Source: Antedon mediterranea (Eukaryota > Echinodermata > Crinoidea > Comatulida > Antedonidae). Taken from it: a DNA stretch of 64,000 nucleotides. The DNA is taken from positions 2,501 to 66,500 of the forward strand of contig NC_092676.1 of assembly GCF_964355755.1 (NCBI RefSeq), given 5' to 3'. Both the position numbers and the translations under genes were made by a program. The notes under the pieces were generated by a model. That model had not been told where the DNA came from, made no database searches, and was given only the letters and a program-made list of their open reading frames with translations. Positions 11,934 through 39,446 of this stretch are shown piece by piece. Position 1 is the stretch's first letter. Each line of letters begins with the position of its first letter.

Positions 11934-13694
11934 ATGGATCGTTTAGTGACATGTTTCTTTTTCGGGTTAGCTACCAGTGCAGCACTTCATTTTACCTCTG
12001 CCGTTCATTTTAATGTTCAACCGCGAGATACCACTGTAATGACTGGCGAGACGGTTATCCTACAATGTGCTTTGGACGAAATGTTACTGATAGGCGAAAG
12101 CCATCACTGGATATGGACAAACGCTATAACGCAACAGAATGTAACTTTAAGTTCAAATCGCCAAATAATAAAAACAGGTATTTCATCAAATCTTTCACGA
12201 AGACTGAGTATTATTGGCAATAAGATGCATGCTGAATACAATCTAAGAATTGAATCTGTTACTAAATCAGAACAAGGCATGTATCGATGTATGTTGCATA
12301 TACGTCAATCTCAAGAGTTTCTGTATTCTAAGGCAGCTACATTAAAAGTGGAAAGCATGCTTGACCGTGTACCAGTTTGCAAACTAACACCGTATAATCC
12401 GTTACCTGGAACACATATTATTATGACCTGCATCGCCGGTAGCCGATTTAGTAAAGAAATTGCATGGATGATAGGAAATACTCGATTACAAAGTAATATA
12501 TTTCGCCAAGGGGGTATTTTGACGGCTGTGTTACGAAGAACAATTTACGAACAAGATAATTTTAACACGTTTACTTGCATTGAAGGAAAACACAGTAGTA
12601 TAGGCATAATTCCTAATGTTGGCAAGTGTTCTTTAACACCATTGATGGTTCAAACAAGAGTTGAAATTATACCAAGCTTTGTACGTCTTAACGAGTATAA
12701 GGATACCACATTACAATGTATTGCAGAATCATTGCCTGCACCTACATTCTACGAGTGGTTTATTGATGAACTTCTGGTATTAAACTCTCCAGATAAATTG
12801 TTATTAATGGATAAGAATAGACAACTGATTATTAAAGCATTGTATTTACAAACGATAAATAAGATTGATATAGAAATTAAATGTAGTGTAGGAAACATAA
12901 AGACAGTCAAAAGTACATCTGTTCAGTTACAACTTGTTTTTAAAAAGAAAACAATCACTCTAAAGCCATTTACTACTGTTGATTTAAAAAGAACAACTAG
13001 TAGAAGTGTAAACAATGAATTGTTTACAGTAACATATAACACTAAATATACTGAGGACAAACTAAGTACGCTAATTCCAACATTACCTAGCGATAGTTTT
13101 TCGAAGAAAATGTTTCAAGATGTGGCGATAATATCCGCTTCTGTTCTGGGAACAATTATAATTATTTTAGTTATAAGTATTGTTTTTATTTCTACACTTA
13201 AAAAGAATAGAAGGAGATTGTTAGAAATAAGCAATTACAACACAGTTGCTGAAGAACCATTAAGCTTCAAAAAAGTAAACCAATGTGATATCGTCACACC
13301 TCGCCGTATGAAATATTGTCATAAGGCTGGTTCTTGTAATACTCTACAACCACCTTTACCAGACAGGGAACGTTACACTTCCAAACAAAGACGTCAAATT
13401 AGCGAACACTACAACGCCAGTTGTAATTTGGTCAGTGTGACTCCTGAGAGAAAGAGTGAGTATTTCAGGAAGATATCTGGAGGATCACGCGGGGAGGGCG
13501 ATGGGTGCAGCATTGGCGAAGAAGCTCAAAAGAGTATTTCCCATTATGAAAACGCAATAGCTATACGATTGTCATACCTAAATGACTATAGTAAACGGCG
13601 ATACCAACGAATTTCTTCACAGCGAAGCTATGATGATGTTGAACAACTCGCATTATACAATAATATCTCGGAATCGATATACGAGGTATCATAG
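11934..13694 (+). CDS. IgR-A: intronless three-Ig type I membrane receptor
   Basis: 586 residues from the first in-frame ATG; the open frame begins 39 bp upstream at a GTG, which is not a plausible start in an animal gene. Order: signal peptide 1-23; V-like Ig1 (C45, W61, C119, with the RLSIIG and GMYRC strand motifs of Kirrel/nephrin-type domains); Ig2 (C166-C215, W178) with an extra outer pair C149/C232; Ig3 (C262, W275, C317); membrane span about 397-422 followed by KKNRRR; tail 423-586. Tail tyrosines include SNYNTV (Y435, fits the ITIM consensus), SYDDV (Y566, fits the Nck-type pYDxV site known in nephrin), ALYNNI (Y575) and SIYEVS (Y583). No introns. It is the most diverged of the four cluster members, 11.7 kb from the next. 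Likely a cell-surface recognition or adhesion receptor signalling through tyrosine phosphorylation; the ligand is unknown. Confidence 0.88.
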   Translation: MDRLVTCFFFGLATSAALHFTSAVHFNVQPRDTTVMTGETVILQCALDEMLLIGESHHWIWTNAITQQNVTLSSNRQIIKTGISSNLSRRLSIIGNKMHAEYNLRIESVTKSEQGMYRCMLHIRQSQEFLYSKAATLKVESMLDRVPVCKLTPYNPLPGTHIIMTCIAGSRFSKEIAWMIGNTRLQSNIFRQGGILTAVLRRTIYEQDNFNTFTCIEGKHSSIGIIPNVGKCSLTPLMVQTRVEIIPSFVRLNEYKDTTLQCIAESLPAPTFYEWFIDELLVLNSPDKLLLMDKNRQLIIKALYLQTINKIDIEIKCSVGNIKTVKSTSVQLQLVFKKKTITLKPFTTVDLKRTTSRSVNNELFTVTYNTKYTEDKLSTLIPTLPSDSFSKKMFQDVAIISASVLGTIIIILVISIVFISTLKKNRRRLLEISNYNTVAEEPLSFKKVNQCDIVTPRRMKYCHKAGSCNTLQPPLPDRERYTSKQRRQISEHYNASCNLVSVTPERKSEYFRKISGGSRGEGDGCSIGEEAQKSISHYENAIAIRLSYLNDYSKRRYQRISSQRSYDDVEQLALYNNISESIYEVS

Positions 13695-15180
13695 AATACA
13701 AAGTAAATGATACTAATTTATCATTGTATTTTGTTGTAATACTGCCAACTCCATGAAGTGAACCACATCACGTAGTATTTAACGGCGTATCAAATTAAAC
13801 GTGAATTAAATGAGACCTTTATTTCAATTTATTCAGCAAGTAGTTTACTTCCAATCATGTTACTTAATAATTGACTAGTATACCATTATTGATGTCACTA
13901 TTTATTTAGGTTATTGTCACTTCCCTTTGAATTGATAAATTACCTTTTTATGTCAAATCACATAAGCTCGCTTTACAGTAAGTAACCCATACAAATTAAA
14001 CAAATTGTTAGATAAAAAAAAAATAACTGCTAATTAAATTGATTTAATTTTGAAATAACAATCAATAAGCTGGTCTTAGAATAGTTTAATACGGTAGAAA
14101 CGGGAGCATCAATATGCTAATGTAAATGAGATTGATATAAAGCATACAAAAAGTAGATATCAAGTATATTTTGTACTGTCTTACGTACAAGTAGAAAGGC
14201 AGAGTTGAACTTATATCCTTCCGTTCTGACGTGTTCAATTAACTGGAAACAATTTACCCAGCCAGTTGAGTTAGTTATTGAAAAATAATCTTGATGATTT
14301 AGTCTTTTACACGTATTGTGTTATTTTTCATCCTCAATTGAGAACATTCGTAATAGACCCTCTACGGACACATTTGGCTGGCCACTGTGTTGCGTTTTAT
14401 TCGTAGATAATAACATCTTGTACAGTTTTGCTCACATTGTATACCTTTTTATACAGGTCTTCAGTGAGAACTGACCAAAGGTGGAAATAAAGAAAACAAT
14501 AGAGCTACAAAATAAAACAAGACCTCTGCATTAGTTGCTTTTTTGTCAGATAAACTACATTGAGCAAATTATCGGATGAAAGTGTTCTAACCTAATTTGA
14601 TATGCAAAAGAATTAGAGTTTTGCATTTACTGTAAATATACATCTAGGCCTACAAGTTAGATGATAGAATACCAAAATGGATAAAAATTAAACAATTCCA
14701 ATCCCTTATATTGAAAATCAATTTGGCAGCGTAACGCATATTCATTTATTTCGTGATAATATGTCAAAAACATTTTGATATTTTGTTTACAGAGACAAAA
14801 GGTTAAACACGTATATAACATTTTTGTGAATGGTTTAATTTAGAGCAGAAGGAGGGATAAGTCGCAATAAGAGCAAAAACGTGCGGTCATTGATATTGTT
14901 GAAAAGACGCACTCATTGCTTGGTATTTGTTTTTTTATTATATTTTGTAGACCGTCTAACCTTCGTGATATATTAGTAAGATATATATTTAGGTGTCAAA
15001 TCAGGAAAGAGTGTTCATTCTTCCCTGATCAAATTGACTATCATGACAGCCAACATGTTTGCAGTCACCTTTGCAACAAATCTTGAAAAACTTGTTATTT
15101 GGTCGACTTTCCGCAAATTTAAGAGTATCCAAACTGGTCGCATTTTTCGGATAATCAATTAATTGTCTAAACAAAAACGT
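13695..15180. other. IgR-A 3' flank, no other gene seen
   Basis: AT-rich sequence with several possible poly(A) signals (for example GGAAATAAAG near 14484). Short open frames lack any recognisable motif. Confidence 0.5.
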
Positions 15181-15440
15181 CATTTTATCTTATACACTGT
15201 AATATTTGCATGTTGTAAACAGTACGGAGAAACCAAAAACATTCTCCGTATGAGAATGACACAACACAGATATCGGCTATCAAAACATTAAAGCCTAATC
15301 AACCTGTAACTGAACATTTTAATTTAGCTGGTCACTGTGATTACAACTTTCAGTGTTAAATAGACCACGATGTAAAATGGATAACTAAAGAACTCTGGGA
15401 ATTACTACTTAAAACAACAACACTGTTTGGATTTAACATT
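15180..15440 (+). pseudogene. retroelement GIY-YIG endonuclease relic
   Basis: Fragments in different frames read QYGETKNILRMRMTQHRYRL (about 15221), EHFNLAGHCDYNF (about 15313) and WITKELWELL...LFGFN (about 15376). In this order they match the endonuclease C-terminus of a Penelope-like or related element (QYVGETK...R..QHR...EHF...GH...W...L.T..P.GLN). Stops and a frameshift show it is dead. It is a different lineage from the copy at 7985-8865. Confidence 0.65.
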
Positions 15441-15449
15441 TAGGAACAT

Positions 15450-16480
15450 ACTCCCAGTTCGGTAAATTTATTCCATAACTGACAACCTAAATTTAAGTTT
15501 CAATGTTAACCATCATTTGAGTTGTTATTTACAGTAGTTCTCCATTCCTACAGCTTACTATGTCGGTTGGTCGGTAAACACTAACTTGTATATGGCCGCC
15601 TTATCTTGATATCAGTTTCATCTAGCTAAGTCAATTTTTCACAGTATATTTCTTATGGGCAGGAATCGATGTTGTTATGTTTTCACGGTGCGCAATCAAA
15701 AATTACGCGGTCTACGCACGATTTAACGAAATCACTTTTGTAATCGTATCTTCATAAGCATGAATCACAATTAAATAAAATTTGGTACTCATAATTTCAG
15801 GGTGTAAATCATTTATGGCAAAACATTTACGTGCGTAGCGCATGTAGCGCATGCGTACGCGCGATTAAAATTTTCAACATTTATTTCAAGATCTCAGCCC
15901 TACAATTATGAAAAAATTTGCCGTAAATAAAACATACCTCAGCATTTATTTAAAAAAAATATAATGCCAAATTTCTGTTTCTATTGTTTTTATTTTGTAG
16001 TAAAAACATTTTTCCCAGGCTCTTGTGTTACGAAAATAAAGCAGGCCTCATAGATGAAGAAAAAATTGATTATCCAGTCCAGTCGGTTGAAAATAACCTT
16101 TAACTTGCGAATAAAAAAGACACAGCTATCCTTGTTTGTTTACTGAATTTTTAAGGAGTTAGGGGGTTTTCAGCATTAAACTTGTCAAGTCTAGTCTGCC
16201 TTGTATTTGTATATGAATGAGTGACTTGATGTCCCACGCTAGTTTTTAGCTTGAATGAAATGCGTGAATGGCTCTAGCTAGGCCTAAAAGCGGACGGGAT
16301 CGTAGTTCCTATGTTTAAATACAAGGTTAATTTATTTGTCATTTGTTAGAAAATATAATGGTAATCAGTTGATACATGTAGTTTGTAGCCTACAGTTGTA
16401 TTTGTAGTCTAGTTTTAGGCCTTATTTATTCTGGCCTTTTTGTTGTTGAACTCCATCTCACACATATTGACGATACAAGA
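15450..16480. other. non-coding, GC-spiked low-copy sequence
   Basis: No gene seen. 15835-15865 is rich in CGCATG/GCGTACGCGCG alternating purine-pyrimidine steps. A GTCGGTTGGTCGGTAAACA block near 15563 recurs at about 46688-46712 after CTCACTATGTCTGTCGG, so it belongs to a dispersed repeat. Confidence 0.5.
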
Positions 16481-16914
16481 CCAGTTCACTCAGGCAGCCC
16501 GAAAGCTGCCTGGCTGTTTTCTTAACTTTGTTCTTATCTCTATTGACATTCAGTCACTGATACCATAACATTGTCATTTGTTCAGTAACTTGCCTTATTA
16601 TACTACTTATACTTATCTACTATCAGCATAGGTGAAATTACGGACCCTTAGATTTTTTGGATGATGATTCATCATTGAGGTGGCAAGTTCGGACTGAGCA
16701 AACACGTTAAAATTTGGAAGTAAATTAAATACGTAGTAGCACGTTGCGCGCGCTCTTTAAAACACATGTTGAAAGATTATTGTTTGAGCAAGAACATTAC
16801 AAATTTGAGCAAACATTAGGCACAGATAAGCGGCATCCGCTCTGTTGAATGTGATGGTCTATGACGAAAAGGCCGCACTTTCAAAAGCCCGTTTATTCTT
16901 CCTATTAATTAGTG

Positions 16915-17045
16915 CATTTAGTACCTTCCGTAAGTGGCCATTTCCCGTAAGCGGCCGCAGCGGCCGCGGCCAACTTTTTTACTAAACATTTTTTTTTTTT
17001 TCGAATGGTAAATTACATCTCGTAAGCGGCCACCTAATAATTCAT
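16915..17045 (+). repeat. fragment of a dispersed DNA-transposon-like repeat
   Basis: CCGTAAGTGGCC, CCCGTAAGCGGCCGC and CGTAAGCGGCC repeats resemble TIR-proximal sequence of pogo/Tigger-like elements. A second, direct-orientation fragment (CAGTAAGCGGTCACCTCCCG) lies near 17836-17870. I could not pair them as the two ends of one element. Confidence 0.35.
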
Positions 17046-18085
17046 TTTGACTTTTGGCAAGAAATACAATTTTGATACTTACTTACTTAATTCATTAGCT
17101 TCACTGTATTTCGAAGCTTGTGTGCAAAATCTTTTTGTTTGATTTATTAGGCGTTTGATTGAAGTGTTACGTCGGTACATGACGTAACCACGGAACTTGA
17201 GTTTTTATGTCAAAAAATGAGTATTTATGGTATTTCCAGGAGACCGTATCCAGCTCATCTGTTCACTTGCTTTCCGGTTGCTGTCATAGTTTCTGTATTT
17301 GTCATCCTCTTTAAAAACCTGGTGACATAGGGCGACATTCACAGAGAAATATGACCAATAATTGTATCATGTTTATTAAACATGTTCGAAAGTTAGTGAT
17401 AAGTTGATGTAATAAAAAGAATAATAAAGATTTCTAACGCACATACCACTCAAGATTTCTTAAGGCACATTAACAAAAATAAATGTAGGCCTATATCTTC
17501 ATCACATTTAAATCTCGTTTTTCGTCTATTTCTGGATTCCATATGGTCTCATGTTTGTAGAAATAATATCCGCGAATGAAGGATTCAATTAATGAAGAAT
17601 TTCATCATTATACTGTGACCGACCATATAATTCATAACAATATTTGACCGACCATTTTAATTCACAACAGCTTTTAAAATGTGTCTGAAAATCATAAATA
17701 ATACTAAACCACTTGATCATAAACAATAAAATACGACTATAGCTGGGGAATTGAGAGACCCGTTGCGTTAAGAACGCCGAAAAACATCGTGCATAGCATA
17801 ATACGTGATTTTGGTCCTCTATCGACAGAACCTTCAGTAAGCGGTCACCTCCCGTAACCGGCACTTTTCCCGGTCCTGCTGAGGGTGATAAAATATGTAT
17901 GATTTTACACAAATTTACATTAAATCGGTAATTGGAGATCCCACAATTTTCTAAGTTTCATGTTCAAGTGTGTCGTTATGTGAAATTTAGGACAATCAAC
18001 TGTAAAAATGGACCTTTGCTTTAATTAAGCCTTTCAAAATGTATACTTGTCAAATGGTTTACCTGTCATCGTATAATATATTCAG
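17046..18085. other. no gene recognised
   Basis: AT-rich. The 107-codon minus-strand frame at 17589-17912 shows no motif or domain and overlaps the transposon-like fragment near 17850. I do not support it as a gene. Confidence 0.45.
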
Positions 18086-19078
18086 AGCCAGAATACATGA
18101 CATGATGACATATAAAGGTTCATCATTTGACACCAGAATACATGCCATAATAATGACAGGTAAAGGTTTACCATTTGACACCAGAATACATGCCATGATG
18201 ATAGGTGAAGGTTAACCATTTGACACCAGAATACATGCCATGACAGGTAAAGGTTTACCATTTGACACCAGAATACATGATATGATGACAGGTAAAGGTT
18301 CACCATTTGACACCAGAATACATGCCATAATGATAGGTAAAGGTACACCATTTGAAACAAGAATACATGCCATGATTACAGGTAAAGGTTCACCATTTGA
18401 CACCAGAATACATGCCATAATGACAGGTAGAGGTTCACCATTTGACACCAGAATACATGCCATAATGACAGGTAAAGATTCACCATTTGACACCAGAATA
18501 CATGCCATAATGACAGGTAAAGATTCACCATTAGACACCAGAATACATGCCATGACGATAGGTAAAGGTTCACCATTTGACACCAGAATACATGCCATAA
18601 TGACAGGTAAAGATTCACCATTTGACACCAGAATACATGCCATAATGACAGGTAAAGGTTCACCATTTGACACCAGAATACATGCCATGATGACAAGTGA
18701 AGGCTCACCATTTGACACCAGAATACATGCAATTATGACAGGTAATGGTTCACCATTTGGCCCCAGAATACATGCCATGATGACAGGTAAATTTTCACCA
18801 TTTGATAGACAAGTACATGCCATGATGACAGGTAAAGGTTCACCATTTGACACCAGAATACATGCCATGATGACACGTAAAGGTTCACCATTTGACACCA
18901 GAATACATGCCATGATGACACGTAAAGGTTCACCATTTAACATCAGAATACATGCCATGATGACAGGCGAAGATTCACCATTAGACACCAGAATACATGC
19001 CATGACGATAGGTAAAGGTTTACCATTTGACACCAGAACACATGATATGACAGGTGAACGTTCACCATTTGACGACAA
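18086..19078. repeat. 45-bp minisatellite, about 22 copies
   Basis: The unit contains CACCATTTGACACCAGAATA, CATGCCAT and GACAGGTAAAGG. The period is 15 codons, and first-copy length variants (48, 45, 42 bp) also change by multiples of three. This leaves open frames on both strands: plus 286 codons cycling TGKGSPFDTRIHA, minus 298 codons cycling ILVSNGEPLPVIMAC. A TAA sits in the plus frame of an upstream copy (about 18213). I treat it as non-coding. Confidence 0.93.
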
Positions 19079-19079
19079 A

Positions 19080-20640
19080 CATTTAATAGGTAAACCATGA
19101 GTATGCATGATGCTAATTAGGATTGTTTACAACTCGTCACGGTTGAGAAGGTGTTTTCACACAGATCGCGAGGAAGTTTTATGATTATGCATACAGAATA
19201 GCCAAACAAGCGCGTTGCACTATGAGATATGTTTTGATCGAAAACTTTGACTGGAAGTCAAAGTTATTTTTTGAACAAAAAAACGTCCGTATTTCGGTTA
19301 AATTATTATTTTTTTAACAAATTTTTGGTGAAACTTAATAACTATTATGATACTTCAAAATGACCCACTTTTTTCCAAATCTAAAAAAAAAAAATGTTTT
19401 GAATTAGGGACAATACATCTTTAATATTTCAATATCTCAACTGGCTTCTATTTTTATTTGTGTACTATATAAGTTAATATTTCAATATCTCAACTGGCTT
19501 CTATTTTTATTTCAGTGTTTTTTCACTGTAAATAGTTTGTAATTTGTTTTTTCCTGTCTCATTTTTTAGTTATTGAATACTTTTTGCACTGTGCCTCTGA
19601 AATAAAATAGATATAATAAATATAAATAAAGTTAAGTTAAGAGAAATGGACATCATTACTATCTTTGATACGTGTTATCCGTGTCCTTTATGAATTATCA
19701 ACGTGTAGCCTACACCGGCTTACTAATGAGTGACACATAACAGGAAATTGATTTTTTATCTTTCATTATTTATTACAAAAACCAATGCAAATATATTTTA
19801 GAAATGAACAAGAATAATAACTTTAACATTTATAATTGTATGGCATACTGTAGGTCATATTAAAAACTTGAACATTAATTTGTTAACCATAACCCTTTAA
19901 TCACTGAAACACTTTTTTTTGGAAGAAATTCATTCATTCAAATTAAGCCTTTTGAAGGAGCATCTTTCTGGCTTTCTTTTTTGTAAAAATATATTATCTT
20001 ATTATTGTTGTGAAGTTATTTAATTGGGATTTATTTAATCGGGAACCGTATACACATAATAACCACTGTTATTTTATATCATGTGGTATTTTGTACGTAT
20101 GCTTTTATTAGGCCTATTTGAAGTTTTAAAAACCTTTTAGCCTGATCATGGAGGTATTTTGTACGTATGCTTTTATTAGGCCTATTTGAAGTTTTAAAAA
20201 CCTTTTAGCCTGATCATGGAGGTATTCTAATTTCTATTCTAATTCTAATTTTATACCTTTATGGCCTGATCACACTAAAGGAAGTATGCCTTATAATTTG
20301 TGTACATGACCTTACAGAGGAAATCTAGAAAACAAGCCTTTTATAATATAACCAACTTACGCTGTCACTCTTATATGACTTAAAACTACGTTTGCGTGCA
20401 GGTAATAATACAATATTGATTTTTATCTAAATAATTTGCAGTATATTTTTAGTATTTGAGGTGCAACTTGTTACATGTGACTTGAAATATTTTTCATATT
20501 GATTAAACTGAATATATTTGGCGTTTTCGGTGATTTTTTGTTTTTTTCTTTCATATTGTGTTTTAGCTATACTATAGAGTAGTTAGTTAATTGTCATTTT
20601 TAGTCCAGCGTCGGCGTTTAGATTTTTGTCTGGAAACTAC
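19080..20640. other. non-coding; two short tandem duplications
   Basis: 19430-19510 repeats TCAATATCTCAACTGGCTTC twice. 20086-20224 is a perfect direct duplication of about 69 bp containing GTACGTATGCTTTTATTAGG. No gene seen. Confidence 0.6.
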
Positions 20641-20667
20641 AGGGGTTAGAGATACAACTGTGTTTTC

Positions 20668-20945
20668 GAGCTAACTTTTCTGGCTGTTTTACTTCTCGTT
20701 TTGATTTAGCTTTTCGCTTTTATTTTGTATCTCCATTAAGATCCAGCCACTGATACCCACAGCATTGACATTTGTTCAGTAATTTGCCTTTGGATTTATA
20801 TATATATATATTTATATATATAAACACATTAGGCAAAGAACATTAATTCTAAACCGCCCGGTGATATACTGAAATTTAATTAATTAATTTGAAATGATAA
20901 AGATGAGAGAATCTGTGAGAATGAGAAAAAGTCGCCCCAACCGAG
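20668..20945. repeat. dispersed repeat (plus) abutting SINE tail (minus)
   Basis: 20668-20800 is the 3' portion of the family at 7400-7570. A TA run follows, then 20825-20940 is the SINE body in reverse orientation (AACCGCCCGGTGATATACTG). The same two families also adjoin at 7.1-7.6 kb, so the pairing is recurrent. Confidence 0.65.
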
Positions 20946-22438: not shown

Positions 22439-22441
22439 TAA

Positions 22442-25414: not shown

Positions 25415-27334
25415 ATGGCAACTGCACTAATTGTGATAGCAATATGTGGCGCAGTATTTGGACCGTCTGTTGTTTTATCTCAATCAATTTTACATTTTCA
25501 AGAGGAGCCGGTGTCTACTAATGTGTACGATGGTCAAACAGTAACCCTTCGATGTGTACTTCAGAGTAGTTGGACTACTGGAGTTGTTCACTGGGTAAAA
25601 GATGAATTAACAGAGATAAGTCGTGGTTCATCTATTTTAACTCATCCATTAATAGACTATACACGGTTTTCAATAGTCGGCGATAGGTCCCAAGGTAATA
25701 ATAATTTGCAGATCAAAAACGTTAAATCAAGTGATGCTGGGTTATTTGTATGTCATTTATATGATTCACAGGGTTATCATCAAGCAGAGACGGGTTCAGC
25801 ATTATTAAAGGTTTTGCCTATTAAACCACCTTTACCTGGGTATCCACTATGCCCTATTAGTATACCTAATCCAGGAGTAGGAGATACTATCATTTTGAGA
25901 TGTTATTCAGTAGGAGAACAACCTCCTGCAATTCTTACATTTTGGCGTGGACAGCATGAAGAAATGCAGGTTGAACGGTACATAGGATCATATGGAGGTG
26001 TGTTTTTTGAACGCCAATTAAACGAAGATGATAACAATTCTACATTTACATGCATGGCCAAGGGACCTGCATTCAAACCTGAAAACCACAAGAACTGCAG
26101 TGTTATACCATTTTTTACACCAACATCAGTAAATGTAAGTCCTGCTATCGCGGAGGTACCGACTGGAATGACAGCTACTTTTCATTGCAAAACTAGAGCT
26201 ATTCCACAGGTTACTAAATATCGTTGGTGGATTTGGAACAATGGATGGGAAAAAATAATACGAACTGGAGGACGATACGCAATTGACGGTGATGGAGAAT
26301 CGATACGTATACTTGATATAAACAAATATGACAACGGTAGAAAAGTCCGATGCATTGCACGTAATTCGTTGGGTTTAAAAGGTGAAGCAGAAGGTAAACT
26401 CAGAGTATATGTAGTAAGACCCACTGCTCGCGGTCCCAACTGGTCTGGTGGACAACCTGGAAATAATGGTAATAATAGGTTATATAATTCTACCAATCCA
26501 ACAGACAGTTATAAAGATGATGACGGAATTAAAATAGGTACTGGACCAAATGTTATTCTTATTGTTGGTTGTGTAGTTGCTGGTTTTTTTGGAATAATTG
26601 TTATAGCATGTCTCGTCGTAATACTTATTCGCAAAGACTCAAGAAATAAACATCGGCTTGTACACCTTTCCACAGCATCACATCCAGATCGTATCAACAA
26701 AGAAGGTATTTCGATCAATGATACGGTAGATAAGAGTTCTAATAAACTTGTTGGGTATGCAACAATTGATTCTGCAACTACAAATGTACCTAAAACTTCT
26801 CAACATTGTAGATTTACAAAACCAGGACACAACACTTTATATGCAAAACCTGTTTTACGAACAGAATCTAATACGCATGATTTACCGTCAAATATAATAA
26901 CTACAATCGAGAAAAACAATGTAACTACTAAAAGACACATAGTTGATCCAGAAGCAATTCTAGTCATGTACGCAAAACCCATAAAGGGGAAGGATGATAA
27001 AACAAATACTTTAGGTGATCGACCTGTGCCCTCCCCAAGAAAAAATTCTATAAAATCAAGTACTTTTCCAAAGAAGCAACCCTTAGTTAACAGGCCAAAC
27101 ATCGATACATTGCATTGTAAACCAACCAACAATAAGATTTATGAAAATGATTTGCTTAAACAAGAAAGAGATGAGACTTCAATTATTGAAGAAGCACGTT
27201 CGGAACAAACTACAAATAATGTGGAAGGATTAGTGTATGCGGAATTGAATTTACAAGAAGCACCTGTTCATTTTGTTAGAATAATGAGGTCTACAGAATA
27301 CGCAAAAATAAAAAGCAATAATCACAATTTTTAA
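25415..27334 (+). CDS. IgR-B: intronless three-Ig receptor with ITIM + ITSM tail
   Basis: 639 residues. Signal peptide 1-22; Ig1 (C47, W60, C113, SSDAGLFVC); Ig2 (C163-C213, W177) with extra outer pair C146/C228; Ig3 (C258, W271, C313); Gly/Asn-rich stalk about 335-375; membrane span 380-405; tail 406-639. Tail motifs in order: VGYATI (Y448, ITIM consensus), two YAKP sites (Y476, Y519; YxxP resembles Crk-type SH2 sites), a PVPSPRK SH3-type stretch (538), LVYAEL (Y608, textbook ITIM) and TEYAKI (Y629, ITSM consensus). Y608 and Y629 are 21 residues apart, close to the membrane-distal ITIM/ITSM pairs of vertebrate inhibitory receptors that recruit SHP phosphatases. No introns. IgR-C follows 2.8 kb downstream on the same strand. 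Inferred role: inhibitory surface receptor, possibly of coelomocytes; adhesion is the alternative. Confidence 0.92.
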   Translation: MATALIVIAICGAVFGPSVVLSQSILHFQEEPVSTNVYDGQTVTLRCVLQSSWTTGVVHWVKDELTEISRGSSILTHPLIDYTRFSIVGDRSQGNNNLQIKNVKSSDAGLFVCHLYDSQGYHQAETGSALLKVLPIKPPLPGYPLCPISIPNPGVGDTIILRCYSVGEQPPAILTFWRGQHEEMQVERYIGSYGGVFFERQLNEDDNNSTFTCMAKGPAFKPENHKNCSVIPFFTPTSVNVSPAIAEVPTGMTATFHCKTRAIPQVTKYRWWIWNNGWEKIIRTGGRYAIDGDGESIRILDINKYDNGRKVRCIARNSLGLKGEAEGKLRVYVVRPTARGPNWSGGQPGNNGNNRLYNSTNPTDSYKDDDGIKIGTGPNVILIVGCVVAGFFGIIVIACLVVILIRKDSRNKHRLVHLSTASHPDRINKEGISINDTVDKSSNKLVGYATIDSATTNVPKTSQHCRFTKPGHNTLYAKPVLRTESNTHDLPSNIITTIEKNNVTTKRHIVDPEAILVMYAKPIKGKDDKTNTLGDRPVPSPRKNSIKSSTFPKKQPLVNRPNIDTLHCKPTNNKIYENDLLKQERDETSIIEEARSEQTTNNVEGLVYAELNLQEAPVHFVRIMRSTEYAKIKSNNHNF

Positions 27335-27344
27335 ATATTACCTA

Positions 27345-28101: not shown

Positions 28102-28286
28102 CGAATGGATTATACCATGTGTAGATGCATCTACATTTATATCTTTATGATAACGAGTAAGTGAGGGAACTCATGCTTTAGGGTTAGGGTTAGATTGATT
28201 GATAATCGAATGGATTATACCATGTGTAGATGCATCTACATTTATATCTTTATGATAACGAGTAAGTGAGGGAACTCATGCTTTAG
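28102..28286. repeat. 80-bp direct repeat separated by a telomeric tract
   Basis: 28102-28181 and 28207-28286 are identical, with TTAGGGTTAGGGTTAG (28178-28193) at the junction plus a short filler (ATTGATTGATAAT). Confidence 0.85.
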
Positions 28287-28794: not shown

Positions 28795-29135
28795 CAATTT
28801 AATTTTACTTAACAATTAGTCGATTGAACTGGTTTACAATTTAGGTTACTCCTTTTCTATCTTAATTTAATTTTACTTAACAATAGTCGATTGAACTGGT
28901 TTACAATTTAGGTTACTCCTTTTCTATCTTAATTTAATTTTACTTAACAATTAGTCGATTGAACTGGTTTACAATTTATGTTACTCCTTTTCTATCTTAA
29001 TTTAATTTTAATTAACAATTAGTCGATTGAACTGGTTTACAATTTAGGTTATTCCTTTTCTATCTTAATTTAATTTTACTTAACAATTAGTCGATTGGAC
29101 TGGTTTACAATTTATGTTACTCGTTTTTTATCTTC
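28795..29135. repeat. 67-68-bp tandem repeat, about 5 copies
   Basis: The unit contains ACTTAACAATTAGTCGATTG then AACTGGTTTACAATTTAGGT. It is AT-rich and homogeneous, between IgR-B and IgR-C. Confidence 0.9.
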
Positions 29136-30096: not shown

Positions 30097-31980
30097 ATGA
30101 AAGTCGTTGCTCTTGAAATTTTACTTATATATATAGTTTATATATGTGTTTCTACTAGAGGACAGACGGCTACTCTACAAACATCTTCCAACTCTGAAGA
30201 AACATTTTCTGGTCAACAAGTGACGTTAACCTGTGACGTAGAGAATGGCTTTGATACTAGCCGTCATCACATTTATTGGTCAAAAATGGATGGATCAAAA
30301 GAAACGTATCTTAGTAAAGATAGAAAAGTATACAATTCAGTCGAAGTAAATCTACGACGCCGGTTGTCTATCACTGGAGATATTACACAAGGTTTTTTTA
30401 ATCTTCATATTCAAGAAACAAAAAAGAAGGATGCGGGTATTTATATTTGTGTTTTATATGATAAGAGAGGGATAGACAAAGCTTCTATACGATTAGACTT
30501 GACTATAATACAAGTAAGAACACCAGATACGGGTTATCCTAAATGTGAGATGTCACCAAAACAACCAAGACTAAATGACAAAGTAACATTTACTTGTCTA
30601 TCAAAAGGAAGCATTCCAAAGGTTTCGCTAAACTGGATGAGAGCTGATGATACTGTATCTCAACATGATGTTGCGGATTCTACAAGAAATGCTGTTTTTA
30701 CACAACACATAATATTAGAAACTGACAACATGGTTCCTTTTACATGTACTGCACATGGAACCTCATTACACCGTCCCATAAATTGTTCTGTTGTTCCTTT
30801 TTCGTTTCCTACCATGGTGAACATCTCTCCTTTTTTTAAAAAGCTAACAATTGGCCAGAATATTACATTAAAATGTACAGCTGTAGCCATTCCTAGTCCT
30901 GATAGATTCAAGTGGACATATGGTAAAGGAAATAAGTTAATTAGAATTTCAAAAAGTTTAGGCCGTTTCGAACTTTTAAACAACGGAAGAACATTAAGAA
31001 TTCAAAATATATCGATTAATGATAATAATATACCAGTGAAGTGCACCGTTAGGAACTCAATGAATATTAAAGGGTCAAAGGAAACTACGTTAAAAGTAAT
31101 ATCCAAATCTTCAGGATCGAATGCCGATAATAATCCAGAAACAAGTCCTCGGATACCAAAGCCAACAGCTACAAATGAGATAATTACAAGAAGAAAACCT
31201 AATAGACCACATCTAATTTCTCCTGGTATCCTCATGGATGAGAAGATACATGAAACAGTAGATTTAAATACACAAGATAAAGCACCTACGGGCAATACAC
31301 CTCTATTTGACAAACATCAACCTAACAATAATGGCAGGGCAGGACTTTTAACAGGTGGTCTAATTGGTATAGCTTGTCTTCTTGGGGCAATATTTTTAGT
31401 TGCTTTGATGCTCATCAAGTTAAAAAGAGATGAAAATAGTGGAAATCTTGTTATGACTAGAAAATTAGAGCATACTGTTACATATACACCGGAACGATAT
31501 TTATGTTCAGAAAATGGCAACAACAAAATGACTAACGAAGATTCTGATCTTTCACAAGCAGTCAAAGATCGCGTTCAAGCTGAACAACTTTTAAGAAATT
31601 CTATTATTGCATCACAGGCAATAGACAACACTATAGATTCGAAAAATAATCAGAAAAAGTTAAAGAATGATTTATCGAAAACAAAATTCACTGAAACAAC
31701 GCGTCGCCGACCCAATTTAGTATTTAAGCGTTTCGCTCGTCCTCTAACAGCCGACTCTTCTCCTAGAAGTATGCAGTTAAAAACAAATTCACTTCCGTCG
31801 AATTGCAATCTACAAACTGATTCTAGCACAATTCAAAGAAAAGAAAAAAGAACAACAAACAATGTTGAGGGGCTTTTATATGCGGATTTAGACTTTACGA
31901 ATGTTAAAACTAGTCAGAACATTATTCCAAATAGTTGTGAAACCACGTATGCTCACATAGCGAGTTTTCTTAAAAAGTAG
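30097..31980 (+). CDS. IgR-C: intronless three-Ig receptor with ITIM + ITSM tail
   Basis: 627 residues. Signal peptide 1 to about 22; Ig1 (C46, W61, C118, RRRLSITGD and DAGIYIC); Ig2 (C167-C217, W180) with extra pair C150/C230; Ig3 (C260, W273, C316); Ser/Thr/Pro-rich stalk about 335-410; membrane span about 416-440; basic start KLKRD; tail 441-627. The tail ends with LLYADL (Y595, ITIM) and TTYAHI (Y618, ITSM), 23 residues apart. The ITIM lies in TTNNVEGLLYADLDF, matching IgR-B TTNNVEGLVYAELNL. In the eight TTNNVEGL codons six differ between the genes and all are synonymous, so the protein sequence is under constraint. Tail basic clusters (TRRRPN, RKEKR) flank the motif. Intronless. Inferred to be a sister inhibitory-type receptor of IgR-B. 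Confidence 0.92.
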   Translation: MKVVALEILLIYIVYICVSTRGQTATLQTSSNSEETFSGQQVTLTCDVENGFDTSRHHIYWSKMDGSKETYLSKDRKVYNSVEVNLRRRLSITGDITQGFFNLHIQETKKKDAGIYICVLYDKRGIDKASIRLDLTIIQVRTPDTGYPKCEMSPKQPRLNDKVTFTCLSKGSIPKVSLNWMRADDTVSQHDVADSTRNAVFTQHIILETDNMVPFTCTAHGTSLHRPINCSVVPFSFPTMVNISPFFKKLTIGQNITLKCTAVAIPSPDRFKWTYGKGNKLIRISKSLGRFELLNNGRTLRIQNISINDNNIPVKCTVRNSMNIKGSKETTLKVISKSSGSNADNNPETSPRIPKPTATNEIITRRKPNRPHLISPGILMDEKIHETVDLNTQDKAPTGNTPLFDKHQPNNNGRAGLLTGGLIGIACLLGAIFLVALMLIKLKRDENSGNLVMTRKLEHTVTYTPERYLCSENGNNKMTNEDSDLSQAVKDRVQAEQLLRNSIIASQAIDNTIDSKNNQKKLKNDLSKTKFTETTRRRPNLVFKRFARPLTADSSPRSMQLKTNSLPSNCNLQTDSSTIQRKEKRTTNNVEGLLYADLDFTNVKTSQNIIPNSCETTYAHIASFLKK

Positions 31981-34320
31981 ATAGAAAGATTAATTGTTTA
32001 ACTACCGGTATACAATAAGTGTTAATATAATTGCTGGATTTATTTTTGATAATAGTAATAACTAAACTAATGGCTGAAAATTCTTACAAACCCTTTTTTG
32101 AACGAACATTTATGTAAGATCTTAAACAAATTAAAGTCGAAATTGTTGTAAAGTTAACTTATAAGGAATATTTGTGTTAGCAATGCTATTCATTTCTGTT
32201 TATTATTTATTTTCATATTCCGAATCTAGGCATGTAAATAGTATGAGAAAAAGTAATTATACAATAAAAGTGAATTGAAATTGAATTGAATATAACTTCG
32301 TGAAATGCAAAACAGTTATGTAAGCTATCTACCAGTATGTATGTTTGTATTTCATTGTCTGAATCAGAATGATTTAATACATAAATATATGCTAAATCGT
32401 AAAACACTAAATAAACAAAAAAATACTATGTTATTACATGCAAATTCAATTCAATTTGGTGGTAATTTCTAAGTAGGATAATTGTTCCTCATATAGCAAA
32501 AAAAAGATATCGCAGGTGGACTTTGAGGTAGGCCTACACCAGATTTTGAAAATATGAACCGTTTTGAATACGAACGTACGTGTAGGCCTACTTCTCCAGG
32601 AAACGACAATACATACATACGTACCTACATCTAGACCTAATGTAAGTAATGACTGACGTCTAACATTCATCTAAATGATGTAACTAAGCCAAGACTATAA
32701 ATATATAGGAAAGGTATGAGCCAATACAGATGCAGGGGCTGCTATAAGAGTCTATAACCGTGCTAATTTAAATAATACAGATATTCAGATGGTCTCCCAT
32801 CCAAGCTCTAACCTGGCCCAAAGTTGCTTAACTTTTGTGATGTGGCGAGAACCGGCGTATCAACATGGATAAGACCGTATAACACATCAAGAATCGTTTT
32901 ACCACTATGTGCAGAAGGTTGAAAATAGTGCTAAAATCTACTTGCCAATGTTAGTTTAAAACTTTTAAAAGGTAAAATCGGCAAGCTGATTATTCATCCA
33001 TTTTACGATATTTGATATTATATTTTATTAGTTGTTGATCATTTGATGTTATGACGTCACATGCAGTATAAGATTAGTAGGCCTACCCATCTTTTGCATT
33101 ATCATAATATCATCATTATAATTTACACCAAAAGAAAGAAGCAGTCTCATTCATAGTTACATATACATTTTTAAGTTATCACCACATGTTATGGCATTAA
33201 CCGCTCGGCCACTAACTCACTTAATTAACTTTACTAATTAACTCACTTAATTAATTGATCATTACACTTCATCGCAGCTTTATGCAGATTACATGAATAC
33301 TCATTGTCAATAAGATTTTTAATTTTGAAACAAAAATATAATCCAAATATATTTTGAATTGTGACGTACCTTTCTTGATGTATAATCGAGATTTATAGAT
33401 ACAAAATACAAAAATGGAGGTTAACAATTGTTCTTTTGTAACTGCAATACACCATTGGAATTTGTTTGCTTCTTTGTTAGGAAAACATTCCACTGTAATT
33501 ACGTTGTTAAATGTACATCAAACTGTGTTTTTTTAAATACACATGTTCTAAATTTTCAATTTAATGTTGACAATTATGACATTTATCAGTTATAGGCAAT
33601 GTCAAAATGTTAAATCTTTTATTTCATTTTGCAAGGACAAATGCACCACACCTGTAGTAGTAGGCCTATTGTAGTACAGTATATACTGTAATTTAAATAG
33701 ATTGTATGTAGTTACTGGTACATAAACCTTGTGTCGGTAATTTGTCAAGGGAATAAGTATTTCCTTTAACAATGATTCATATTCCTGTTTTAACTCATGT
33801 GTCGTGATGTGATGGTTCCTGTAACACTGTTAATACACTAAGCCGCATACGGACAATGAGGCTTGAAATCAAAATCTTCGTTGTACTATCATACACGAAA
33901 AAAGTGCCATGGTCTGAGGTTTCAATCTGAAAGCGGGTTTTGACATTTTTAACATAACTAGAGGGTGAACGCGCTTTGCTCGCTCTAGTAATTAGTGTGG
34001 AAAAACGTTTTTGCATTATGTTTACCTATTTCAGAATTATATATATCCCCTTATTTCACAACGAGGTAGTCCTATCATAACTGATAAAAAAAATCGTTTT
34101 AAAAGTTTTAGTTTTGTGAAAAGAAATGAGATCGATATCTAGCTTTAAAGGAAATGATTGTTATACAAATACTATATATAAGGAATGTTTTTGGAGTTGG
34201 ATGGTGAGAATGTTTTATGAGTTGGAAAATTGACTGCTATATTTTAACGAGGCGGAGCCGAGTTGAAAATATAATTTGTTGGTATTACTAAAGAACGATG
34301 GTTACACACAATATTTCTCA
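31981..34320. other. no gene recognised
   Basis: AT-rich sequence with scattered TAGGCCTA words, one TGACGTCA at 33052 and short meaningless open frames. The start of this stretch should be the IgR-C 3' UTR. Confidence 0.5.
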
Positions 34321-34323
34321 ATT

Positions 34324-34643
34324 GGCGTACGCGCAACAAAGATCAAATTAAGACCCTTCATATTTTAGTATTATTTATACACGAATCGGGATATATAAAC
34401 ATTGCGTACGAGAGCAACAAAGATCAAATTAAGACCCTTCATATTTTAGTATTATTTATACATGAATCGGGATATATAAACATTGCGTACGCGCAACAAA
34501 GATCAAATTAAGACCCTTCATATTTTAGTATTATTTATACACGAATCGGGATATATAAACATTGCGTACGCGCAACAAAGATCAAATTAAGACCCTTCAT
34601 ATTTTAGTATTATTTATACACGAATCGGGATATATAAACATTA
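34324..34643. repeat. 79-bp tandem repeat, 4 copies
   Basis: GCGTACGCGCAACAAAGATC followed by AAATTAAGACCCTTCATATT and ACGAATCGGGATATATAAAC. Copies start near 34324, 34405, 34484 and 34563. Confidence 0.9.
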
Positions 34644-34785
34644 GACATTAGAAGAAATTCTAAACCACCTCAGAGTAATATACTGAAAATTGTTTTCAAA
34701 ACCATAAACTTAAGGAAATCTCTGACTATATTTGAACTTGGATCCTAGCTTTATTATTTGTCCGAGTTAAAACAGAAATCATGAA

Positions 34786-35360
34786 TAGTTCAATGTATCC
34801 AAGACTGGGATAATTATTATGAATGTCAAAAAACAAATGCATTAAATAAATAATACAAATAATAATACAAATAATACAAATAATGTATCCAAGACTGGGA
34901 TAATTATTATGAATGTCAGAAAACAAATGTAGCACACACCAGGTGGGGAATTTTAACAATTATATTGATCATACATGCTCCTATATATCATACATCCATA
35001 CATACATTGATCATACATGCTTCTATATATCATCCATACATACATTGATCATACATGCTTCTATATATCATCCATACATACATTGATCATACATGCTTCT
35101 ATATATCATACATACATACATTGATCATACATGCTTCTATATATCATACATACATACATTGATCATACATGCTTCTATATATCATACATACATACATTGA
35201 TCATACATTCTCATATATATCATCCATACATACATTGATCATACATGCTTCTATATATCATACATACATACATTGATCATACATGCTTCTATATATCATA
35301 CATACATACATTGATCATACATGCTTCTATATATCATACATGCTCCTATATATCATCATT
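34786..35360. repeat. 48-bp duplication and about 38-bp minisatellite
   Basis: ATGTATCCAAGACTGGGATA is duplicated at 34793 and 34883 around an AATAATACA tract. From 34960 the unit TTGATCATACATGCTTCTAT plus ATATCATACATACATACA repeats about ten times. Confidence 0.88.
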
Positions 35361-36040
35361 TTTAGGATTTTTATTATGCTAAACGATTTTGTTGAAAATA
35401 AGTATAGTTTATTTCAATCAACTCTATTTTCAATGACGGATAGACGGACGGACGGACGGACATATAGATTAACGGGTTTAAATTATAAATCAAAATAGGA
35501 AATTGCCATTAAACAAAACAGTAGGTCTATATATAATGTGTTGGTGTGCTGACGTTATCAAAATCAAACAGGAAGATGAAAATTTCGGAAGATAGTGATT
35601 TTTTTTACCCTTTTCAGCACTTTTGTGTAATTAATGTGCGCATTTTTAACCTGCTCGTATAGCGTTATTTAAAGTCGGAATGGACTCGGTGAATGTACTA
35701 AGGATGGTGAGTAGAATGCGATTTATACCAAAAATTGTATTTTTTACGCTTTCTAGATATCGCGCGTGCAAAAACGTGTTTTTGCGCAGTAATTTCTTGA
35801 AATACGCAAATGGCCTAACATGCTCTAAATTTATTAAATTTACGTTAAACTTTTAACGCGCGATTTCACGCGATTTGAAATGGCATGTAAATGACGTCAC
35901 GGTTGAGAGATCACGCTGAAAACCTTACTAGGATTGAATTTAATTATTCCAAAGATATTGTCAGATTTTGGTGATCATTGAAATGTTTTTGATTACACAT
36001 AGTAGTGCACAGAAAGACGAATTAATAATAACGATTTCAA
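35361..36040. other. no gene recognised
   Basis: Contains GACGGACGGACGGAC (35445), a TGACGTCACGG site at 35891-35901 and low-complexity text. Confidence 0.45.
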
Positions 36041-36065
36041 ACAATATATGATCATTTTTTCTAAA

Positions 36066-37354
36066 TGATCACCTAATAAGAACGCAGTAAACTTACATAC
36101 TGTCCTTATTCAAACAATGTATGATCACCTAATAAGAACGCAGTAAACTTACATACTGTCCTTATTCAAACAATTCATGATCACCTAATAAGAACGCAGT
36201 AAACTTACATACTGTCCTTATTCAAACAATTCATGATCACCTAATAAGAACGCAGTAAACTTACATACTGTCCTTATTCAAACAATTCATGATCACCTAA
36301 TAAGAACGCAGTAAACTTACATACTGTCCTTATTCAAACAATTCATGATCACCTAATAAGAACGCAGTAAACTTACATACTGTCCTTATTCAAACAATTC
36401 ATGATCACCTAATAAGAACGCAGTAAACTTACATACTGTCCTTATTCAAACAATTCATGATCACCTAATAAGAACGCAGTAAACTTACATACTGTCCTTA
36501 TTCAAACAATTCATGATCACCTAATAAGAACGCAGTAAACTTACATACTGTCCTTATTCAAACAATTCATGATCATCTAATAAGAACGCAGTAAACTTAC
36601 ATACTGTTCTTATTCAAACAATTCATGATCACCTAATAAGAACGCAGTAAACTTACATACTGTCCTTATTCAAACAATTCATGATCACCTAATAAGAACG
36701 CAGTAAACTTACATACTGTCCTTATTCAAACAATTCATGATCACCTAATAAGAACGCAGTAAACTTACATACTGTCCTTATTCAAACAATTCATGATCAC
36801 CTAATAAGAACGCAGTAAACTTACATACTGTCCTTATTCAAACAATTCATGATCATCTAATAAGAACGCAGTAAACTTACATACTGTCCTTATTCAAACA
36901 ATTCATGATCACCTAATAAGAACGCAGTAAACTTACATACTGTCCTTATTCAAACAATTCATGATCATCTAATAAGAACGCAGTAAACTTACATACTGTC
37001 CTTATTCAAACAATTCATGATCACCTAATAAGAACGCAGTAAACTTACATACTGTCCTTATTCAAACAATTCATGATCACCTAATAAGAACGCAGTAAAC
37101 TTACATACTGTCCTTATTCAAACAATTCATGATCACCTAATAAGAACGCAGTAAACTTACATACTGTCCTTATTCAAACAATTCATGATCACCTAATAAG
37201 AACGCAGTAAACTTACATACTGTCCTTATTCAAACAATTCATGATCACCTAATAAGAACGCAGTAAACTTACATACTGTCCTTATTCAAACAATTCATGA
37301 TCACCTAATAAGAACGCAGTAAACTTACATACTGTCCTTATTCAAACAATTCAA
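36066..37354. repeat. 56-bp minisatellite, 23 near-identical copies
   Basis: The unit contains TGATCACCTAATAAGAACGC then AGTAAACTTACATACTGTCC and TTATTCAAACAATTCA. Only a few substitutions are seen across 1.29 kb (for example GATCATC in three copies), so this is the youngest array in the window. It ends about 515 bp upstream of the IgR-D start codon. Confidence 0.97.
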
Positions 37355-37868
37355 GGTATCCAACTAAGAAATCTAGATTGCTGAGCTCCTATAATACTTA
37401 ATACACTGTGCTTGTCAAGCCAATTGCTTAATCTGTAATAGTAGTTGTATATTTAAATTACTCAAGTACAGGTGGATGCAACAATAGGCTACAAGCAGTA
37501 TGGACCTTTAGTAGGCCTATATTATGGAGGAAATCCATGCTAAAAAAAGGGATCTTCTTAATTAAGTACTTGTGATTCATAACACCATAGATAAATATCT
37601 ATGACTACACTAAAATGTCATTTTGCCGGTTCAATCAGTTAATTTATGTAGGAATAATAATGTAATTTTTACTAACAATTACCAAACAATGCATGGGCCA
37701 AGGAACAGAGGAAATTATTAGGAATTCATAGACCGTAATGCACCGTACTTAGCCAATGATTAGTCGAGGTCAAATTACTAGACTCGTTATACTTGACTGA
37801 ACATCATCAGTGCAAGACAGTTTTAATGACATCATACACGGCGGCCTTGTGATTCAGCTGCAATCAAA

Positions 37869-39446
37869 ATGGAAACGACTGCCGTATTTTTCTTATTTCT
37901 ATTTAGTTTCATTAATAAATCGTTTGCTAATCTAATTCATCAACCTGAAGACACCATTGCTGAAGTCGGGGATACTGTAGTTTTAAGGTGTTCAGTTGAT
38001 CCAGGACCAGAAGTGAACGTTTACTGGCAATTATTAACAGCAGACGCTGTGGTATATTTAACAGACAATACGCGCGTCTATCCCGGTAGCGAATCCAATA
38101 CTCTAAACGATAGACTTACAATTGTAGGTGATGACAAGACAGGGGTATTTGATTTAAGAATAAAACCAATTTATGGAAGCGATTCAGGAAAATTCCTATG
38201 TTTGTATTTTGTTGATGGATTACATCAGAAGTCATCACGTGTCGCTACTCTTACAGTTCTATCGCCACCGTTTGAAGAGTACCCGATTTGTTCTTTGACT
38301 CCAAAGAATAATCTACAAATTGGTGATTTTATACGGATGACATGTGTGACATCAGGAGGAATACCGCCTGCTAGGATATATTGGAAACGATTTGAAGAAA
38401 TGTTACCTGCCTATTTACATGAACAAGATGGACGAATATATATTTCCTATGAATTTACATTATCTGAATTGGACAACGGTGCTGTATTTACATGTGAAGC
38501 CGTGTCACCTGCCATTAGGTCACCACGGTTTTGTAGCGTCAGACCATATCGAAATGAAACGAAAGTTCGAATCCACTCTAGATCTAAATTAATTATTGGC
38601 AATGATGGCATATTCGATTGTATAGCCTCTGCAATTCCACCAGCAGATATTTTCGAATGGCGAATAAATAATAATATTGTAGATGTAAAAGATGGTAGAC
38701 TTCACTTAGAAAATTATAACCAAACATTACGTATATCTTCGCTAAATATTTCAGATAAAAATAATGAGATATCTTGTGTTGCAGGAAACACGTATGTCGT
38801 AGTGACTGGTAACGCATCAATGAGTTTGTCCATAAGCAAGGTAGCCTCGGTAAATGGACCTGAAATTGTTGGTATATGCATTGGAATATTTCTGGTAATT
38901 ATTTCGGCTGTCATTTTATTGTATTTTTTGCTTAAATACAAAAAGAAACGTGACTTTTTTAAAGATTTAGATTTTGACAAAGCATGTAGGAATAGTTACG
39001 TCTTTCCTCGTCAGTTTTTCTCAAGAAGATCACAAAATGAATGTATGAATCGAAAAGACACAGCACCTGAAAACGATCGCCGCCAGTCTCGAGTAATTGT
39101 ATGCTCGACACCACAAGAAGCAATTAATATACACAGCACAGAATTACAACGGATTCCAGAGAATCAATCGCCTAATCCACGTTATTCTGTTGGATTTTAT
39201 TCGACAAATGCTACAGTCTCTAATCACAATGAATCAAGACTTTATAATGAAGTATTAGGTGATAAAGATGACGAGATTCAAGAAGACATATATGCAAACA
39301 TAGACGACGAAGATAACCCAAAAGCAACTCCACCTAAGCCTCCTTCACAATCATTAAAACCACGAATAAGTGGACCTATCCTTAACTATAGTACCAACAA
39401 TAGTGTTGATTTAGCTAATGCTATGTATGTGGGTATCATTGATTGA
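37869..39446 (+). CDS. IgR-D: intronless three-Ig receptor with ITAM-like tail
   Basis: 525 residues, shortest of the four. Signal peptide 1-20 (..NKSFA); Ig1 (C41, W53, C111, RLTIVGD and DSGKFLC); Ig2 (C159-C209, W172) with extra pair C141/C222; Ig3 (C251, W264, C303); very short stalk; membrane span about 331-356 then KYKKKRD; tail about 170 residues. Tail motifs: RLYNEV (Y459), DIYANI (Y475), AMYVGI (Y520) and PPKPP (488-492, SH3-type). Y459 and Y475 lie in an acidic stretch (GDKDDEIQED between them), giving YxxV-x12-YxxI, at the loose end of ITAM spacing. No strict ITIM or ITSM. Kozak context AAAATGG. Intronless. It could be an activating or adaptor-binding partner of IgR-B and IgR-C; function is unproven. 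Confidence 0.9.
   Translation: METTAVFFLFLFSFINKSFANLIHQPEDTIAEVGDTVVLRCSVDPGPEVNVYWQLLTADAVVYLTDNTRVYPGSESNTLNDRLTIVGDDKTGVFDLRIKPIYGSDSGKFLCLYFVDGLHQKSSRVATLTVLSPPFEEYPICSLTPKNNLQIGDFIRMTCVTSGGIPPARIYWKRFEEMLPAYLHEQDGRIYISYEFTLSELDNGAVFTCEAVSPAIRSPRFCSVRPYRNETKVRIHSRSKLIIGNDGIFDCIASAIPPADIFEWRINNNIVDVKDGRLHLENYNQTLRISSLNISDKNNEISCVAGNTYVVVTGNASMSLSISKVASVNGPEIVGICIGIFLVIISAVILLYFLLKYKKKRDFFKDLDFDKACRNSYVFPRQFFSRRSQNECMNRKDTAPENDRRQSRVIVCSTPQEAINIHSTELQRIPENQSPNPRYSVGFYSTNATVSNHNESRLYNEVLGDKDDEIQEDIYANIDDEDNPKATPPKPPSQSLKPRISGPILNYSTNNSVDLANAMYVGIID

Follow-up and report, generated by a model that had tools for sequence, protein, structure and literature searches.

We report here that four single-exon genes, A, B, C and D, in a 64-kb stretch of the genome of the crinoid Antedon mediterranea (C7:2501-66500, contig C7 being NC_092676.1; hereafter the window) belong to a large family of type I membrane receptors with immunoglobulin (Ig) domains. 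The family is mostly intronless and numbers at least 145 loci on nine chromosomes of the 354-Mb, 18-contig assembly. The members share a layout comprising a signal-peptide-like start, a V-like first Ig domain (Ig1), a C2-like second domain (Ig2) bracketed by two extra cysteines, an I-like third domain (Ig3), a membrane span and a tail. The tails of B and C end in a conserved module that is predicted to dock a phosphatase, and in two tandem arrays on chromosome C3 divergent ectodomains stand over conserved tails. Family membership together with the mechanism proposed below, taken as a whole explanation, is the account that we hold to be probable by a modest measure.

All four genes lie on the forward strand (Table 1), and each is a complete open reading frame (ORF) with its own start, membrane span and stop and with no introns in the coding region. 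A Pfam scan, with matches counted over the curated cut-offs, recovered Ig_3, V-set and I-set domains in A, B, C and D. An earlier note on this DNA had described four same-strand, single-exon Ig genes, each with one membrane span and a long tail, and this is confirmed, with hydropathy giving one 21-residue hydrophobic span per gene and tails of 167, 236, 185 and 172 residues in A, B, C and D, respectively. Other parts of that description hold for part of the set. Pfam matches three Ig stretches in every gene but A, where it matches two and the third domain comes from alignment; signal-peptide-like starts are visible by eye in all four, with the hydropathy window exceeding 1.6 only at the starts of B and C; and the tail is tyrosine-rich, as described, in A (12 tyrosines in 167 residues) and D (8 in 172) but not in B (6 in 236) and C (4 in 185), although the latter two hold the best motifs. 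The statement that no other gene lies between the four stands for the single intervening frame scanned (17592-17957), which was the sole one of ten other long window frames scanned against Pfam to lie between them and gave no match. The four are paralogues with about 24-31% amino-acid identity, and tblastn found no fifth copy in the 64-kb window at E-values up to 1. Chance ORFs are ruled out by length and conservation: among 100 mononucleotide shuffles of the window, its satellite end left out, the longest frame opening with ATG was 175 amino acids (aa), against 525-639 aa for A-D.

The search of the whole assembly for homologues with the Ig2 cysteine bracket, which the earlier note had proposed, showed that its view of the locus as a local cluster was wrong in scope, the window holding a small part of a genome-wide family; an isolated local cluster is thereby ruled out. 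The census, by tblastn with B (E 10), D (E 1e-5) and one C3 gene (E 1e-5), yields counts that are lower bounds, with 68, 81 and 123 matches, respectively, merging into at least 145 loci: 98 on C3, 17 on C11, 12 on C7, seven on C2, five on C6, three on C10 and one each on C4, C8 and C9. The match spans at least 600 nucleotides (nt) in 137 of the 145 loci, an in-frame stop occurs in three (C11:15.837, C3:18.877 and C3:32.496 Mb), and 67 of the 68 matches of B sit in open frames of at least 400 aa. With loci grouped across gaps of less than 60 kb, the largest groups are at C3:18.70-18.91 Mb (52 loci), C3:11.73-11.90 Mb (22) and C11:15.81-16.06 Mb (14). Two other queries, neither merged into the 145, were A (37 matches) and Ig2 alone (111 matches), the latter adding a further cluster at C9:2.91-2.96 Mb; in a relative at C9:2.92 Mb the bracketed Ig2 leads into a Ser/Thr-rich stalk, with no evident Ig3. 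On C7 itself four more single-exon relatives lie at 0.80-0.91 Mb, one of them with a tail of 465 residues holding 18 tyrosines. An intronless Ig receptor family of such size is not described by any paper listed for the terms used in the openly accessible literature, outside which most subscription papers fall, a weak indication that the family is new to the literature.

The extra cysteines of Ig2 provide a family signature. They bracket the domain in all 19 aligned ectodomains, which were hand-picked for diversity from the members read, and the 14 invariant columns of this alignment include the three canonical cysteine pairs as well as the cysteine before and the cysteine after Ig2. The strict bracket pattern is found in 39 of 40 ORFs read, the fortieth fitting a looser pattern, and the two bracketing cysteines probably form a disulfide. 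In a tree of 40 ectodomains, where long branches leave the deep joins unsure, A, B and C group together (99/92), the C3 arrays are separate (100/100), and D and the four C7 genes at 0.8-0.9 Mb join A-C weakly (70/82). A founder that duplicated only inside the window was considered and rejected, for D joins A-C weakly even though A, B and C group. It could also be supposed that A-D are decayed, or belong as exons to larger spliced genes, given that introns in the 5' untranslated region are possible from DNA alone and that a few family members contain stops. We regard this as very improbable: each of the four has its own start, span and stop, the C-terminus of B and C is conserved in other genes, the strict bracket is kept almost throughout the ORFs read, and in a C3 array 113-332 bp separate the stop of one ORF from the start of the following one.

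Introns are in use in this genome, because the RFX-family gene downstream of D is multi-exon, with a BCD domain split over several frames (window 54733-56572, +; Pfam). On C8 the Ig2-only query recovered a 135-residue frame which, by eye, reads as an exon, with a bracketed Ig2 lying between acceptor and donor sites and phase-1 boundaries on both sides. Within 7 kb around it the family profile detects three Ig1-like domains, of which one is divided between two frames, the Ig2 and two Ig3 pieces (E 4e-6 and 0.0014); a frame with a membrane span lies near the Ig2 exon, and a proline-rich frame beyond. These frames are consistent with exons of an intron-bearing relative with the domain order of A-D, and are candidates for a single gene. 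Since C8 holds such exons, the intronless founder proposed in the earlier note is supported, as is local amplification, now within the larger genome-wide family. The founder would have come from a multi-exon Ig gene like that on C8, which probably lost its introns, most simply by retroposition though another route is possible, and its copies would then have spread by duplication, mainly within chromosomes.

As had also been proposed, the tails have diverged. Those of B and C carry an immunoreceptor tyrosine-based inhibitory motif (ITIM) followed by an immunoreceptor tyrosine-based switch motif (ITSM), namely LVYAEL...TEYAKI in B and LLYADL...TTYAHI in C, whereas A and D show other motifs (YxN, YxxI/V and PxxP). 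By chance the ITIM and ITSM pair arises in 0.2% of 20,000 tail shuffles for B and 0.06% for C. The same module is present in nine open frames of the genome, counted by hand as six lineages: B, C, a single-exon three-Ig gene on C2, a 655-residue frame with Ig matches on C6, one frame on C1 and, at C7 3.42-3.65 Mb, four frames that resemble one another. With one representative taken per lineage, the second tyrosine is followed by 5-10 residues, and a strict ITIM is found in six of six lineages and a strict ITSM in four. Docking of tandem SH2 domains calls for two Yxx(I/L/V) motifs with a spacing of about 20-25 residues, and the tyrosines are 21-23 apart in all six. A 13-residue core, selected for its conservation, has 8-10 positions (62-77%) identical among B, C and the C2 gene, as against 21-32% identity for their ectodomains; the ITIM and ITSM of B and C are more conserved than the ectodomains.

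An ITIM followed by an ITSM-like motif also occurs in the tails of SIRP-alpha and the CD33-type Siglecs, whose genes, like those of PD-1 and BTLA, bear introns. All of these are vertebrate proteins with other ectodomains, and the likeness of the tails may be convergent. The portion of PMC12151841 available to us, which also defines the two motifs, places the PD-1 pair at Y223 and Y248, records tandem ITIM and ITSM in BTLA too, and prefers a model of SHP-2 on PD-1 in which both SH2 domains bind. The tail pair of B and C accordingly resembles that of PD-1 and BTLA and predicts docking of a tandem-SH2, SHP-2-like phosphatase. In the mechanism that we propose, the Ig ectodomain would bind a ligand, protein or glycan, carried by another cell or a microbe, a Src-type kinase would phosphorylate the tail tyrosines, and in B and C the ITIM and ITSM would engage both SH2 domains of the phosphatase, which would then damp signalling as in PD-1, the inhibitory sign being part of the proposal. 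A and D would couple to other SH2 proteins. We infer the ligand, cell type, phosphorylation, phosphatase docking and retroposition; B and C would form a credible inhibitory branch.

The earlier note likened the genes to a paired-receptor locus. In the vertebrate sense, such a locus would match inhibitory B and C with activating partners in the cluster or the family. By motif, B and C would count as inhibitory members; D has an ITAM-like pair, YNEV-x12-YANI; and three relatives at C7 0.84-0.90 Mb, about 0.8 Mb from the window genes, have tails of only 7-20 residues, and the span of one of them (at 903 kb) has two arginines at its outer edge. However, no strict immunoreceptor tyrosine-based activation motif (ITAM) occurs in the tails of A-D, charged residues are absent from the membrane windows of A, B and D, the window of C has a single lysine close to its inner edge, and, whereas vertebrate pairs have similar ectodomains, those of A-D are 24-31% identical. 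No activating partner was found among the few members read of the 145 loci. Pairing with activating partners thus has no support so far, and we think a true paired-receptor locus improbable.

Two tandem arrays on C3 combine a variable front with a constant back. At C3:11.8737-11.9037 Mb, 18 ORFs of 477-522 aa follow one another at the close spacing given above, and their mean amino-acid identity over 153 pairs is 0.61 in Ig1, 0.62 in Ig2, 0.72 in Ig3, 0.43 in the stalk, 0.85 in the membrane span and 0.93 in the tail. Mean synonymous divergence (dS) declines from 1.20 in Ig1, with 29 saturated pairs excluded, to 0.23 in the tail. In nine genes of the second array, synonymous difference declines from 0.5-0.6 in Ig1 to 0.03-0.06 over the membrane span and the beginning of the tail, with 0.12 at the tail end. 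Simple gene conversion of the 3' end fits the low synonymous divergence of the tails, yet identity falls at the stop codon: in the nine genes from 97% over the last 250 coding nt to 44% over the next 60 nt, and in the 18-gene array from 92% at the coding end to 53% in the 3' flank. The sameness is confined to the coding end, and either short repeated conversion or synonymous constraint could fit. A search with the C3 tail found 91 matches on C3 and a single one on C10 (92 in all), and groups of near-equal score among them suggest subarrays each with a near-uniform tail; uniformity was read directly in the nine and the 18 genes. Among the 153 pairs, nonsynonymous exceeds synonymous difference in 13 for the signal peptide and seven for the stalk. 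The pooled ratio over 33 close pairs is 0.33 in Ig1, 0.49 in Ig2, 0.41 in Ig3 and 0.19 in the tail, and when the four youngest genes are taken by themselves, the counts for Ig1 are nearer neutral.

Variable ectodomains over a constant tail in arrays, with purifying selection overall, also suit a family for cell adhesion or cell identity, in which relatives of the echinoderm protein KirrelL would serve cell-cell recognition, fusion or sorting through tails that bind cytoskeletal adaptors. The C3 arrays would then provide an identity code in the manner of clustered protocadherins, with one tail in common. The Ig domains do match the structures of contactin, Roundabout, DSCAM, neurotrimin and SYG-1/Kirrel. 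By sequence against PDB, the best matches are contactin-1 and CD276 for B, CD276 (E 1.5e-19) followed by neurotrimin and SYG-2 for D, and Roundabout 2, DSCAM and CEA for the 19-member profile. The likeness of the N-terminal domains to Kirrel and nephrin seen by the earlier note survives in so far as SYG-1 and Kirrel1 match Ig1-Ig2, but they rank below contactin-1, CD276, Roundabout and DSCAM. Kirrel itself has five Ig domains and a multi-exon gene, in contrast to the three domains per ORF of A-D (Pfam and alignment), their one exon and their extra Ig2 cysteine bracket. As many as 7143 sequences match the family profile, and such structure matches are ordinary for Ig domains and do not decide between adhesion and immunity.

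Two features speak against adhesion: CD276, the best structure match of D, is an immune protein, and a C-terminal ITIM and ITSM pair is typical of signalling receptors. KirrelL, the nearest known gene, which is characterised by expression in skeletogenic cells under Alx1/Ets1, bears on both sides. In the accessible part of PMC8903837 it is a membrane Ig protein, intronless in all echinoderms examined, for which retrotransposition is proposed, and is needed for skeletogenic-cell fusion and skeleton formation (there, and in Ettensohn and Dey 2017 as quoted by it). It shares with A-D the intronless coding region and membrane-anchored Ig architecture, a likeness of description; the same part of PMC8903837 treats it as one skeletogenic gene per species and not as an array, whereas the crinoid family has at least 145 loci, arrays and some phosphatase-type tails. 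Adhesion, which the earlier note had kept as a real alternative, thus stands as a serious rival and is in our estimate quite possible, though short of probable.

Other invertebrates have comparable receptors. The Alr genes of Hydractinia are multi-exon, and their V-set and I-set domains are arranged otherwise than in A-D. They are nonetheless, as here, a large clustered Ig receptor family, of 41 genes in the accessible text of PMC11999971, and bear ITIM/ITAM-type motifs according to the accessible text of PMC12065747. The latter source, to the same extent, describes the fester co-receptors (FcoR) of Botryllus as long-tailed type I Ig receptors (520-610 aa), like A-D, which are encoded together in one locus and whose tails can bear an ITIM or hemITAM; they have a sushi domain and alternative splicing, while the Pfam scan of A-D gave no sushi match. 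With ITIM-bearing Ig receptors in both animals (PMC12065747, same portion), the notion in the earlier note that these are a vertebrate theme is outdated.

Several observations weigh against the receptor family with an inhibitory branch that we favour. Single motifs as frequent as those observed are not unusual in the shuffled tails, the ITIM arising in 3.7% (B) and 17% (C) of shuffles and the ITSM in 7.3% and 3.5%; what is rare is the pair and its conservation. Nine module frames are few beside 145 loci, and those on C1 and at 3.42-3.65 Mb on C7 are known by the module, Ig domains being seen in B, C and the C2 and C6 frames. The C3 arrays carry a different tail, of which one in 27 read has a strict ITIM past the membrane edge, and stops occur in 11 of the 92 matches of the C3 tail, some copies being decayed or ending differently. 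Whole-domain positive selection was sought in the C3 array and not found, nonsynonymous difference exceeding synonymous in 0 of 153 pairs for Ig1, three for Ig2 and two for Ig3; a broad sign of an arms race is not seen, and selection is purifying overall. Finally, KirrelL as the nearest named relative acts in cell fusion and skeleton formation. That well over 100 single-exon Ig receptors, a germline repertoire from one intronless founder with a variable front, a constant back and a separate inhibitory branch, constitute the main cell-surface system by which this animal recognises non-self or self is a tentative idea, possible but short of probable.

Table 1. Receptor genes and tail and Ig2 features in the window (positions are those of the window)
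Feature	Position	Strand	Details
Gene A, single-exon 3-Ig receptor, 586 aa	11934..13694	+	span 13128-13190; tail 13191-13691
Gene A tail motifs SNYNTV, YQRI, YDDV, YNNI	within 13191-13691	+	
Gene B, single-exon 3-Ig receptor, 639 aa	25415..27334	+	span 26561-26623; tail 26624-27331
B Ig2 with extra cysteine bracket C146, C228 outside the C163/C213 pair	25850..26098	+	putative disulfide
B C-terminal docking module NVEGLVYAELNLQ...TEYAKI	27218..27331	+	ITIM 27230-27247, ITSM 27293-27310; tyrosines 21 apart
Gene C, single-exon 3-Ig receptor, 627 aa	30097..31980	+	span 31360-31422; tail 31423-31977
C C-terminal docking module NVEGLLYADLDF...TTYAHI	31861..31977	+	ITIM 31873-31890, ITSM 31942-31959; tyrosines 23 apart
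Gene D, single-exon 3-Ig receptor, 525 aa	37869..39446	+	span 38865-38927; tail 38928-39443
D Ig2 with extra cysteine bracket	38289..38534	+	putative disulfide
D tail ITAM-like pair YNEV-x12-YANI	39243..39302	+	not a strict ITAM, V at first +3; PPKPP further on

Elsewhere in the window, a satellite of 10-11 bp units occupies 28-7096, near the start of contig C7, and reads as long repetitive ORFs, while a 56 bp minisatellite of 23 copies that are 99% alike (36065-37353) lies directly upstream of D. A single-exon rhodopsin-type G protein-coupled receptor of 326 aa (Pfam 7tm_1) is encoded at 62192-63172 (-). The ORFs at 40777-41397 (+) and 7876-8862 (+) gave no Pfam match above cut-off, and we take them to resemble retroelement remnants. 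Outside the window, a search for COX1 gave no match in the assembly, and C2:7.83-8.21 Mb holds a row of 12 Hox-type homeoboxes, of which one close to the posterior end is inverted. By the features of their homeodomains they are presumably Hox1-8, 9/10 and three 11/13, the ambulacrarian set; Hox4 is present in the row, and sea urchins are, to our knowledge, without Hox4. Such a cluster suits a hemichordate or an echinoderm outside the sea urchins.

If the family is immune, it would represent a germline system of Ig-fold receptors in a relative of vertebrates, built from intronless genes that duplicated and were homogenised locally. Its tails would then provide a test of whether phosphatase docking through ITIM and ITSM predates vertebrate immunity or arose repeatedly. 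If it serves adhesion, it would be a large Ig-based cell-identity code, which may have grown out of an intronless gene of the KirrelL kind. Complete receptors encoded in one exon are easy to express, so that in either case their ligands and signalling are directly testable.

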